NCBI RefSeq assembly: GCF_013409345.1
Contig: NZ_JACCBB010000001.1
Coordinates: 3,286,001 to 3,350,000 of the forward strand
Reading direction: 5' to 3'
Source: Kineococcus aurantiacus
Lineage (GTDB): Bacteria > Actinomycetota > Actinomycetes > Actinomycetales > Kineococcaceae
DNA length: 64,000 nucleotides
Shown here: positions 3,938 through 7,110 of the stretch, one piece after another
Layout: the number at the start of each line of letters is the position of its first letter
Position numbering within the stretch: position 1 is the stretch's first letter
Notes under the pieces: generated by a model
Database searches by the model: none
Told to the model about the DNA's origin: nothing
Seen by the model: only the letters and a program-made list of their open reading frames with translations
Position numbers and translations under genes: made by a program

Positions 3938-5110
3938 GTGACCAGCCCGCCCGTCGCCACCGTGCGGCCGCACCCCACCCCCTGGCGCACGTCGACCCGG
4001 GGCCTGCGGCCCAGCGCCAAGGTGCTCCCGACCCAGGCGCGGGCCCACAACCGCGCGGTCGTGCTCGGGCTCCTCTTCCACTCCGGTCCGGTCTCGCGCG
4101 CCGACCTGGCCCGCGCCACCGGGCTCACCCGCGTCACCGTCTCCGAGATCGTGGGGGAGCTGCTCGCCGACGGCCTCGTCGCCGAGCTGGGCCTGCGGCC
4201 CGAGGGGCGGGTCGGCAAGCCGGCCATGATGGTCGGGCTGCGCTCGACCGAGCACCACGTCGTCGCCGTCGACCTGCAACGCCTGCCGCTGGCCCGCGTC
4301 GCCGTGCTGGACCTCACGGGCACCGTCGTCACCGAGCGCACCGAGGACTTCTCCGGCCTGCGGGGCGAGGACGCGCTCGCGGCGCTGGAACGGCTCTGCC
4401 GCGACGCCGTCGACTCCTCCCCGCAGCGCGTCGTCGGGGTCGGGATCGGGACCCCCGGCATCGTCGACGCGGCCGGCGGCATCGTCGAGTCCGTCCGGCT
4501 CAGCTGGAAGGACCTGCCGCTGGCCGAGGCGCTGACCACCGCCCTCGGGATCGGGGTGCACGTCGCCAACGACGCCGACACCGCCGCCCTGGCGGAGTTC
4601 ACCTACGGCGAGGCGTCCTCCTCGGGGTTCATGGCCGTCGTCGTCGGCCAGGGGGTCGGGGCCGGGATCGTCCTGGACGGCCACCTCGTGCGCGGGCACC
4701 GGCTGGCCGCCGGGGAGATCGGCCACCTCACCGTCGACCCCCGGGGGGAGCCGTGCGAGTGCGGCCGCCGCGGCTGCCTGGAGACGATCGTCGCCCCCGC
4801 CTACCTGGAGCGGACCCTCGCGGGCCGGACCCCGGCCCGCCGCCGCGCCGCGCTGCGCGACGCCGGCCGGCGCCTCGGGACGGTCCTGGCCCCCGTCGTG
4901 GCCGCCCTGGACCTCGAGGAGGTCCTGCTCACCGGCCCCGCCGACCTGCTCGACGGCCCGCTGCTGGAAGCCGCCGCCGAGACCGTGGAGGGGACGCTGC
5001 TGCCCACCACCGGCCCCGCCGTCCGGGTCCGGATGGGCGCCCTGCGCGAGAACGGCGTGCTCCAGGGCGCCGCCGCCCTCGTGCTGGCCGGTGAGTTCGG
5101 CTTCAGCTGA
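3938..5110 (+). CDS. ROK-family transcriptional repressor
   Basis: A 390-residue protein with an N-terminal winged helix-turn-helix (about residues 38-85, motif VSRADLARATGLTRVTVSEIVGEL) and a C-terminal ROK sugar-kinase-like domain. The ROK zinc signature is present as GEPCECGRRGCLE, and the sugar-binding ExGH-type motif as AAGEIGHLTVD. The GTG at 3938 keeps a usual N-terminus; an open frame extends upstream to 3842 across the candidate operator, so that extension is unlikely to be coding. The gene is divergent from the importer operon and probably represses it until the sugar or its phosphate binds. Possible inducers include N-acetylglucosamine derivatives. Confidence 0.88.
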   Translation: MTSPPVATVRPHPTPWRTSTRGLRPSAKVLPTQARAHNRAVVLGLLFHSGPVSRADLARATGLTRVTVSEIVGELLADGLVAELGLRPEGRVGKPAMMVGLRSTEHHVVAVDLQRLPLARVAVLDLTGTVVTERTEDFSGLRGEDALAALERLCRDAVDSSPQRVVGVGIGTPGIVDAAGGIVESVRLSWKDLPLAEALTTALGIGVHVANDADTAALAEFTYGEASSSGFMAVVVGQGVGAGIVLDGHLVRGHRLAAGEIGHLTVDPRGEPCECGRRGCLETIVAPAYLERTLAGRTPARRRAALRDAGRRLGTVLAPVVAALDLEEVLLTGPADLLDGPLLEAAAETVEGTLLPTTGPAVRVRMGALRENGVLQGAAALVLAGEFGFS

Positions 5111-5134: not shown

Positions 5135-5182
5135 GGTGATCAAGCACTGCGGTGATCAAGCACTGCGGTGATCAAGCACTTG
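5135..5182 (+). repeat. three tandem 16-bp repeats upstream of nuclease-like gene
   Basis: The unit GGTGATCAAGCACTGC occurs at 5135-5150 and 5151-5166, and a third copy diverging in its last two bases starts at 5167. Each unit contains the palindrome TGATCA. The same unit in reverse complement is repeated after the next gene (from 6053), so the gene at 5229 is framed by oppositely oriented arrays. No function is known to me. Confidence 0.9.
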
Positions 5183-5228
5183 TGGACAACTCCCGGGGCT
5201 GCCCACCCGGGTCGGGCACGCTTCCGCC

Positions 5229-6053
5229 GTGTCCCCACCGCCCCGGACCGCTGACCTCGCGCACCGGCTCGTCGACCTCTCGCTCGACGACGCCGACCGG
5301 ATCGCCGCCCTGGCCCAGGCCCTGCCCGCGGGAGCGGCGATCTCGCGCCGGACCGCCGCCGCCCTGCACGGTTTCCACGTGTTCAGCCACCGCGAGCGCC
5401 ACGAGCGGCTGCCCCTGGAGTGCACCGTCCCCCGCGGTGCCGAACGCGTCCGCCGCCCGGGGGTCCTGAGCTGCACGTCCACCCTCCGCGGTGACGTCAC
5501 CTCCCTCGGCGGCCTGCCCGTCACCACCGTGCAGCGCACGGTCCTCGACATCGCCCGGTACTGCGTGCCCGACGTGGCGATCGCGATGCTGGACCGTGCT
5601 CTGCGCCAGGGGCTCCGGGACCGCGACGACCTCCTCGACCGGCTCGAGGAGGTCCGGGGCGACCGCGGTGTCGGGCAGGCCCGGCACCTCCTGCGAGCCG
5701 CCGACGCGGGGTCGGAGTCCCCGGGGGAGAGCGCGTGCCGGCTCCGCCTGGTCGACGCCGGGTTCGACCGCCCGCAGACGCAGATCCGCGTCGAGCGCCC
5801 GAACGGCCGGCACTACCGGCTCGACACCGGCTGGGAGGAACGGCGCCTCGCGGTCGAGTACGACGGTTTCGAGCCGCACGCCGGCCCCGTGGCCTTCGCC
5901 CGGGACACCCGGCGGCGTGCCTGGCTCGCCGGTCAGGGGTGGACGGTCCTCGTGGCGCACTCCGGGCACGTCTTCGGGCGGGCGATGGACCTGGAACTGG
6001 CCGTCGGCGAGATCCTCGGGGTGGCGCCCCGGAACCGTCGCCGCACGTGGTGA
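5229..6053 (+). CDS. AbiEi/DUF559-like protein with PD-(D/E)XK nuclease-type C-terminus
   Basis: A 274-residue protein from a GTG at 5229. Residues 20-130 resemble the AbiEi-type (COG5340) module common in actinobacteria: an A-I-S-R-R-T-A-A-A-L-H-G segment followed by a PVTTVQRTVLDIA motif. Residues 160-245 look like a DUF559/Vsr-like endonuclease fold. This part has an acidic ESPGES stretch (E167), D199 in RLDTGW, and E210-x-D212 in AVEYDG, then an RDTRRRAWLAGQGW helix; D199 and E210/D212 match a PD-(D/E)XK active-site layout. Proteins of this type are widespread in actinobacteria and largely uncharacterised. Most remarkable are the 16-bp repeat arrays on both sides. It could be a lone antitoxin-like regulator or a nuclease; activity is untested. 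Confidence 0.7.
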   Translation: MSPPPRTADLAHRLVDLSLDDADRIAALAQALPAGAAISRRTAAALHGFHVFSHRERHERLPLECTVPRGAERVRRPGVLSCTSTLRGDVTSLGGLPVTTVQRTVLDIARYCVPDVAIAMLDRALRQGLRDRDDLLDRLEEVRGDRGVGQARHLLRAADAGSESPGESACRLRLVDAGFDRPQTQIRVERPNGRHYRLDTGWEERRLAVEYDGFEPHAGPVAFARDTRRRAWLAGQGWTVLVAHSGHVFGRAMDLELAVGEILGVAPRNRRRTW

Positions 6054-6123
6054 CCCCGGAAGTGCTTGACCCCGGAAGTGCTTGACCCCGGAAGTGCTTG
6101 ATCACCGAAGTGCTTGATCACCG
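6053..6123 (+). repeat. four tandem 16-bp repeats downstream of nuclease-like gene, inverted relative to the upstream array
   Basis: ACCCCGGAAGTGCTTG occurs at 6053-6068, 6069-6084 and 6085-6100. A variant, ATCACCGAAGTGCTTG, follows at 6101-6116, and a partial unit (ATCACCG) at 6117-6123. In reverse complement the core AGTGCTTGATCACC equals the unit of the array at 5135-5182. The first unit begins on the last base of the stop codon of the preceding gene. Confidence 0.9.
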
Positions 6124-6168: not shown

Positions 6169-7110
6169 TCAGGGGAGGGCGCGGGCGAGGGAGTCGATGG
6201 ACCGCAGCGGGTCGCCGACGGGGAACAGCACGACCTCGTCCAGCCCGGCCGCCCGCAGCTCGGCGATCCGCGACCGCACGCGGTCGGGCGTGCCGGCCAG
6301 CGTGAGGTCGTCGACCCACGCGTCGGGCATGCGGCGGGTGAACTCGTCCGCGTCCGCGCAGGAGGCGCGCAGGGCGAGCAGTTCCTCGGCGTAGGGGGAG
6401 GTGGCGGTGTGGACGGCCGCGTCGGGCGTCCCGACCCACAGCAGCCCCGGGCGGACGGCGGCGCGGGCCGCGGCGGGGTCGTCGTCCACGACGGCGAGCT
6501 CGTACCCGGTGAGCCGGTGCCCGGGGCCGGCGCCGATCTGCTCGCGGGCGGCGCGCGCGTACTCGGGGGTCACGGGCTCGGCGAGCAGGGTGCCGTCGGC
6601 GACCCGGCCCGACAGCGCGAGCGACTTCGGCCCGCGCACCCCGGCGACCACGGCGGGCGGGACCTCGGGGGCGAACTCCAGCCGGACCCCGTCGAGGTGC
6701 ACGCGGTCGCCGTCCACCGTCACGGTCTCGCCGTGCAGGAGCCGGCGCACGGCGTCGAGGTGCTCCGACAGCGACGTCAGGGGGCTCCTGCTCCAGGCGC
6801 CGACCTGCCGCATCCAGGTCGGGACCCCGTGCCCCAGGCCGAGGGTGAAGCGGCCGGGGAACTGCTCGGCCAGGGTCGAGGCCTCCATGGCGGTGAAGAC
6901 GGGGTTGCGCGCGGCGGCGGGGGCGATGCCCAGCCCCACGCCGATCCGCTCGGTCACCGCGAGCGCCGCGGCGGCCTGGGCGAAACCGCCGCGGAAACCG
7001 AGGTCCTCGATGACCCAGAGGCTGGAGAAACCCAGCGCCTCGGCGCGGCGGGCGAAGGGGAGGAGGTCCGCGGCGGGCAGGTCGCGGGGGACGGTCACTC
7101 CGGTGCTCAT
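6169..7110 (-). CDS. LLM-class F420/flavin-dependent oxidoreductase
   Basis: A 313-residue luciferase-like TIM-barrel protein. It has the family hallmarks: an N-terminal ADLLPFARRAEALGFSSLWV segment, a strand ending in GVGLGIAPAAARNP, and the FTLGLGHG motif near residue 90. The C-terminal part contains DDLTLAGTPDRVRSRI, a typical LLM signature. Such enzymes reduce or oxidise substrates with F420 or FMN; the substrate cannot be told. The ATG at 7110 lies four bases after the MFS gene's stop, so it is the last gene of a TetR-MFS-LLM operon. Confidence 0.85.
   Translation of the reverse strand: MSTGVTVPRDLPAADLLPFARRAEALGFSSLWVIEDLGFRGGFAQAAAALAVTERIGVGLGIAPAAARNPVFTAMEASTLAEQFPGRFTLGLGHGVPTWMRQVGAWSRSPLTSLSEHLDAVRRLLHGETVTVDGDRVHLDGVRLEFAPEVPPAVVAGVRGPKSLALSGRVADGTLLAEPVTPEYARAAREQIGAGPGHRLTGYELAVVDDDPAAARAAVRPGLLWVGTPDAAVHTATSPYAEELLALRASCADADEFTRRMPDAWVDDLTLAGTPDRVRSRIAELRAAGLDEVVLFPVGDPLRSIDSLARALP

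Follow-up and report, generated by a model that had tools for sequence, protein, structure and literature searches.

A nuclease gene framed by inverted repeat arrays in Kineococcus aurantiacus suggests a REP-like element with an enzyme unrelated to RAYT

Why would a single predicted nuclease gene lie between two arrays of the same short repeat, set in opposite orientations? The question was raised by a locus in a stretch of 64,000 nucleotides from Kineococcus aurantiacus (contig NZ_JACCBB010000001.1, positions 3,286,001 to 3,350,000), hereafter called the window. The initial annotation of this DNA had considered a mobile cassette, a REP-like element with its own protein and a two-sided operator array. 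The features of the locus are listed below in window coordinates.

3995..5110, plus strand: left neighbour, coding for a ROK-family protein; convergent with the right neighbour and outside the putative element
5135..5180, minus strand: upstream repeat array, three head-to-tail units of GGTGATCAAGCACT with a 16-bp period
5180..5190, plus strand: TTGTGGACAAC, a motif of the CTGTGGAY/RTCCACAG type directly after the upstream array
5229..6053, plus strand: predicted nuclease ORF of 274 aa, AbiEi-like and Vsr/DUF559-type
6051..6060, plus strand: half repeat unit TGACCCCGGA, overlapping the stop codon of the gene
6061..6122, plus strand: downstream repeat array, four inverted units (two degenerate and two exact)
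6169..7044, minus strand: right neighbour, coding for a luciferase-like monooxygenase; outside the putative element and adjoining the ROK gene in relative G005

Three units before and four units plus a partial one after a single AbiEi/DUF559-like gene had been described initially, with a unit length of 16 bp and with downstream units inverted relative to the upstream ones, and the coordinates agree on all these points. Exact units of GGTGATCAAGCACT occupied positions 5135-5148, 5151-5164 and 5167-5180, and the downstream array was composed of two degenerate units AGTGCTTGACCCCG (6061-6074 and 6077-6090) followed by two exact units AGTGCTTGATCACC (6093-6106 and 6109-6122). The description of the copies as nearly identical held for the three upstream and for two of the four downstream units, but not for the other two, which display TTGACCCC where the exact units have TTGATCACC. 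The TGA of the half unit TGACCCCGGA is the stop codon of the nuclease gene itself. At up to two mismatches, AGTGCTTGATCACC was found six times in the window, whereas 100 shuffles yielded 0.09 matches on average; five of these six matches were the exact copies at the nuclease locus. Folded separately, neither of the two framing arrays formed a fold on its own. The motif TTGTGGACAAC, whose type we take to resemble the actinobacterial DnaA box, is related to the CCTGTCCACA loop of the gene-less pairs described below; since it directly follows the upstream array, the nuclease gene sits at the loop position of a pair. A Pfam scan of five nearby genes recorded a solute-binding protein, ROK, luciferase-like, MFS and SDR proteins, and no AbiEii-type nucleotidyltransferase (DUF1814/AbiEii toxin) among them.

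The repeat was widely dispersed in its own genome (5.03 Mb), where 143 copies were found at up to one mismatch (64 exact ones among the matches listed) against none for the reversed control. The 14-mer of the window displayed 0 to 12 matches in each of 118 relatives. Of 42 clusters fetched, 38 were intergenic (15 between convergent, 19 between tandem and four between divergent genes), three were called coding and one was bordered by a called gene on just one side; these calls came from a crude GC3 gene caller whose coding fraction away from repeats, 0.946, is probably too high. Of the 44 clusters listed, 37 lay in the central section of the 4.85-Mb contig C1, from 1.2 to 3.7 Mb; beyond 2.01 Mb the listing covers one-mismatch copies in part. 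Units were arranged head to tail with a period of 16 bases, and inverted pairs were present in most of the clusters. Pairs in the '<>' arrangement often had a 10-base spacer reading CCTGTCCACA or a relative of it, and a TGTCCACA-like spacer was present in 13 of 19 such pairs versus a single motif match in 16 '><' pairs. One gene-less pair (L045) folded into a long hairpin (z -11.8) with a 10-nt loop of the CCTGTCCACA type, and z ranged from -3.8 to -12.5 in the four pairs folded. A second homologue in the same genome, 34% identical, displayed different pairs on both its sides; this second AbiEi/DUF559-like gene (L010, G000:C1:2893755-2897387) is framed by AAGCACGGTTCGGGCCCT... pairs, and one gene-less pair of its repeat type was found in L052, near 340-400. 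Another gene, coding for an NTP_transf_2 nucleotidyltransferase domain (L061, 1278-2200), had window-type repeats on both sides, without inverted framing.

Similarities of the window protein to Pfam families were all below the curated cut-offs (MTES_1575 2.3e-5, DUF559 7e-4, AbiEi_1 0.004), and its best PADLOC match was AbiEi (4e-11). AbiEi-type profiles matched the first half of the protein and MTES_1575/DUF559 the second half; no match to the Y1 domain (PF01797) was obtained in the Pfam profile search. Homologues in other Actinomycetota were about 30-52% identical, with one to four close homologues per genome among the matches listed. Two alignments, of 33 homologues (A1) and of 20 (A3), were hand-picked from a set of 62, two of which (L088 and L108) were omitted because of internal stops. 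At E 0.01, MTES_1575 matched 28, AbiEi_1 16, DUF559 nine and AbiEi_4 four of the 33 aligned homologues, and PADLOC AbiEi profiles matched 32 of them. Compared with known structures, the profile of the 33 homologues scored best against the DUF559-like 3hrl (4e-6), followed by weak similarities to PvuRts1 I (0.03), 3r3p (0.17) and Vsr (1vsr, 0.44-0.45). Residues E167, D199, E210, D212, H217, D226 and R229 were invariant in all 20 aligned close homologues. A structure prediction from three sequences reached a mean pLDDT of 41.6, too low for a usable model. In six pairs of homologues, dN/dS was 0.15-0.38, and the gene is therefore under purifying selection. Phage or plasmid cargo was considered and rejected: no phage record and two plasmid records were retrieved at E 1e-5, two viral-contig scans with single proteins yielded no relative, and the L045 pair had no plasmid match.

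The framing itself was compared in the 62 homologue loci, selected by protein similarity (the window, two named records and 59 from relatives). Flanks of 400 bases were searched for their longest exact inverted match, with a threshold of at least 13 bp. This was reached in 43 of the 62 loci versus five of 119 same-locus control pairs, the proportion being 18 of 22 among the best-scoring loci and 25 of 40 among the others. The control maximum of 15 bp was exceeded in 33 of the 62 loci, and mean lengths were 19.2 for loci versus 10.0 for controls. The initial annotation had also envisaged the gene in relatives without repeats; this was the case in a minority, 19 of the 62 loci having no exact inverted match of 13 bp, but some of these carry imperfect repeats (e.g. 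L016 and L128). A Nonomuraea homologue checked separately did not reach 13 bp either. Repeats of close homologues varied by genome (GTGATCATGCACGTTCG, GTGATCTTGCACTTCTGCAG, GACGATCAAGGAAGT and others), and distant homologues displayed quite different palindromes (e.g. Mycobacterium sp. GA-1285 and G042). Quite different palindromes also framed a gene on a Tsukamurella plasmid whose sole annotation is that of a DUF559 protein. In 40 of 62 loci, the CTGTGGAY/RTCCACAG motif occurred close to the start of the ORF, versus 50 of 1497 control windows and one of 62 downstream; predicted starts may be wrong, and some of the misses may therefore be artefacts. The layout recurs in other genomes with different repeat sequences, and framing is a property of this family of predicted nucleases.

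Dispersal was not equally pronounced everywhere. The framing palindromes of Mycobacterium sp. GA-1285 were hardly dispersed, the 12-mer CGTACACCAGGG having seven matches, four of them at the gene, with a background of three matches in the window genome. Another distant repeat type, CGCCGAGATACCGG, had 16 matches in G037, four in G053, one in G018 and none in seven other genomes searched.

A relationship was observed between nucleases and their repeats. Four close homologues were fetched in G018 and three in G026, and their repeats differed from gene to gene; homologues of sister genomes, 83, 80 and 74% identical, had repeat types in common. When upstream and downstream flanks were matched in a 10 by 10 matrix, own flanks were highest or tied in eight of ten rows, the exceptions being L084 (17 with its sister L133 versus 16) and L130 (19 with its sister L085 versus 16). 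Distances between repeats and between proteins were correlated (Mantel r 0.30, p 0.0005, n=20, with 14-base repeat cores chosen by eye). The correlation with repeat distance was stronger for the C-terminal part (0.35) than for the N-terminal one (0.22), and we therefore make no case for the AbiEi-like part as sole reader of the repeat. Within genomes, one putative nuclease is paired with one repeat type.

Repeat abundance followed the gene as well. Among 118 relatives, the median number of core-motif matches was 147.5 in the 14 genomes with a close homologue versus 27 in the 104 others, and at least 61 matches were recorded in 12 of these 14 versus two of the 104; both comparisons are uncorrected for phylogeny, and the core motif was designed from flanks of homologue-positive genomes after those flanks were seen. 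Few matches occurred in G003 (31) and G005 (46) despite their close homologues, and GTGATCWWGSR was frequent in G042 (209) and G074 (75), which have no close homologue. The homologue of G042 has another palindrome on both sides, and that of G074 displayed no inverted match above 8 bp and an apparent tandem array downstream only. The possibility raised initially, of repeats occurring genome-wide independently of the gene family, was thus borne out as to their genome-wide occurrence but not as to independence, core-motif abundance going with a close homologue between genomes.

Orthologous sites were sought for the window site and 42 loci of its genome, 43 sites in all, within 320 kb of G005 and 400 kb of G008, and paired flanks were found for seven of them. 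Six matched sites were without repeats by eye (L044, L046, L047, L051 and L073 in G008, L078 in G005). At the window's site in G005, the ROK and monooxygenase genes are 126 bases apart and enclose a gene-less cluster, the nuclease gene being absent. This cluster is made of G005's own variant, CGCGATCAAGGA, and the nuclease gene of G005 is located on another contig. Copies of CGCGATCAAGGA at up to one mismatch numbered 12 in the 320 kb sampled from G005 and two in the 400 kb sampled from G008, with no copy of the window variant in either. Inspection by eye of the 260 bases that follow the ROK gene revealed no such pair in G008, G003, G001, G010 and G007; the next gene after ROK differs in these genomes, which are therefore not clean empty sites. 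The site shared by G005 and the window may hold an ancestral pair whose repeats changed in concert with their nucleases, or else both lineages may have gained repeats there.

REP sequences are common bacterial repeats, and the enzymes known to us as their partners are HUH transposases. In the REP/RAYT systems described in PMC2817692 and PMC3116915, a dispersed extragenic repeat borders the gene in two inverted copies, doublets in inverted arrangement are predicted to fold into hairpins and several gene-repeat pairs may occur in one genome. Inverted framing, hairpin doublets and several gene-repeat pairs per genome are features also encountered here. The window repeat is likewise abundant and extragenic in its own genome, an abundance that does not extend to Mycobacterium sp. 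GA-1285. Yet a predicted Vsr/DUF559-type nuclease that includes an AbiEi-like part takes the place of the Y1 transposase, and the repeat has a GATC core in tandem units (GGTGATCAAGCACT) instead of the GT(A/G)G head of REP. Y1_Tnp (PF01797, RAYT) was not found in any of the 12 genomes searched, the same search being positive in five of 14 control genomes, and a RAYT as hidden mover of the repeats was rejected on this basis. No description of such a repeat-nuclease system was found in the open-access literature, the scope of this survey, outside which most subscription papers fall; the text consulted of PMC3733652, on REP families, contained no occurrence of Actinobacteria, Mycobacterium, Streptomyces, Kineococcus, GATC or restriction.

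Two further systems share parts of this organization. AbiEi and Rv2827c each bind to inverted repeats within the promoter of their own gene, and for Rv2827c these are four repeats of 23 bp located before the start codon (PMC7319586). The AbiEi-like N-terminal region and the inverted repeats by the gene recall AbiE type IV toxin-antitoxin systems; here, however, a nuclease domain is attached, the repeats lie on both sides and are dispersed in the genome, and no nucleotidyltransferase toxin is found among the five genes near the window gene. The Caulobacter DUF559 protein VsrA was proposed to nick DNA like Vsr (PMC12907096), and the window family has a set of acidic and histidine residues similar to the one reported there for VsrA. 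In contrast to VsrA, for which no repeat family is described in the sections consulted of PMC12907096, an AbiEi-like part is joined to the nuclease domain here.

Several other explanations were weighed. The arrays could be operators through which the AbiEi-like part autoregulates its gene; the dispersed copies would then make up a regulon or serve as spare sites, and the nuclease domain would have another function. The AbiEi similarity of the window protein and its homologues and the position of the upstream array, at least 48 bases before the start codon, agree with this reading, as does the precedent of Rv2827c, with inverted repeats bound upstream of the start codon (PMC7319586, in part). 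Yet arrays also follow the stop codon in the homologue loci inspected, just four of 38 intergenic clusters lie between divergent genes, the repeat varies between species of one genus and no AbiEii-type nucleotidyltransferase accompanies the gene among the five neighbours scanned. An operator role is unlikely on this evidence, and the two-sided operator array initially proposed would by itself leave the dispersed intergenic copies unexplained. A homing-type selfish gene, in which the nuclease gene would be the mobile unit cutting empty sites and the repeats a duplicated target or scar, is slightly less likely still. The window gene does occupy a site where G005 has a gene-less pair, its likely catalytic residues are conserved and its nuclease domain weakly resembles 3r3p, a mobile intron protein, at the profile level (E 0.17; PvuRts1 I scored better at 0.03). 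We take 3r3p to be an EDxHD-type homing endonuclease, a class that to our knowledge acts in intron homing and has no dispersed repeats. Gene-less repeats far outnumber genes (31-545 core-motif matches versus one to four close homologues per genome among the matches listed), and orthologous genes in sister genomes retain similar downstream flanks, both of which speak against homing.

A self-marking defence, with the nuclease attacking foreign DNA and the repeats acting as decoys or protective marks, appears improbable: the PADLOC AbiEi profiles matching 32 of 33 aligned homologues would fit, and GATC in the repeat core could be methylated, but the Pfam scan revealed no defence gene among the five nearby genes. 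Hardly any credence is left for a coincidence, with ordinary bidirectional hairpins of the terminator type as repeats and a gene that landed between two of them by chance. Many clusters do lie between convergent genes (15 of 38); against this, the repeats are paralogue-specific and framing recurs with different repeat sequences in 43 of 62 loci versus five of 119 controls, a recurrence on which chance insertion between terminators was rejected.

Gene and arrays probably constitute a single REP/REPIN-like element, whose cognate nuclease is unrelated to RAYT. Of the options initially proposed, the REP-like element with its own protein gained support from the dispersed hairpin pairs, the recurrent framing, the paralogue-specific repeats and the lack of a Y1 transposase in 12 genomes; a mobile cassette is a possible reading of the window gene. 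Sequence comparison established the layout, its recurrence with different repeats, the link between abundance and gene, the nuclease-repeat pairing and the purifying selection. Together they suggest a very small selfish DNA element of a type not reported until now, whose enzyme is not known to accompany such repeats. The short repeat (GGTGATCAAGCACT, core GATCWWG) would work as an inverted pair able to fold into a hairpin, often with the 10-nt loop CCTGTCCACA. The gene of the cognate nuclease would lie between the two arms of one copy, and elsewhere in this genome the copies observed are gene-less pairs or clusters, mostly between genes. Recognition of the cognate repeat by the protein may depend on the AbiEi-like part, on the nuclease part or on the two together, and the Vsr-like PD-(D/E)XK domain would nick or cut at the pair, probably when this is extruded or single-stranded. 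Repair, gene conversion or re-insertion would then spread pairs into intergenic sites and homogenise them, and local slippage could generate the 16-bp tandem arrays. That the nuclease acts on the repeats and spreads them is what we infer from these comparisons.

On a broader scale, the balance tips slightly towards REP-type selfish DNA of a second and independent class that would be widespread in Actinomycetota. Its members would rely on a Vsr-like nuclease joined to an AbiEi-like part, and not on an HUH transposase, to recognise and spread their own hairpin repeats, with one nuclease per repeat type and several pairs per genome co-evolving over whole families. If so, a second, unrelated enzyme class would display the REP layout, and the REP lifestyle would have arisen more than once. 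Dispersed intergenic repeats of actinobacterial genomes would be accounted for, and a role would be suggested for many genes annotated only as 'DUF559 domain-containing', such as the Tsukamurella one. The evolution of specificity could also be studied in this family, which would provide naturally occurring nuclease-repeat pairs.
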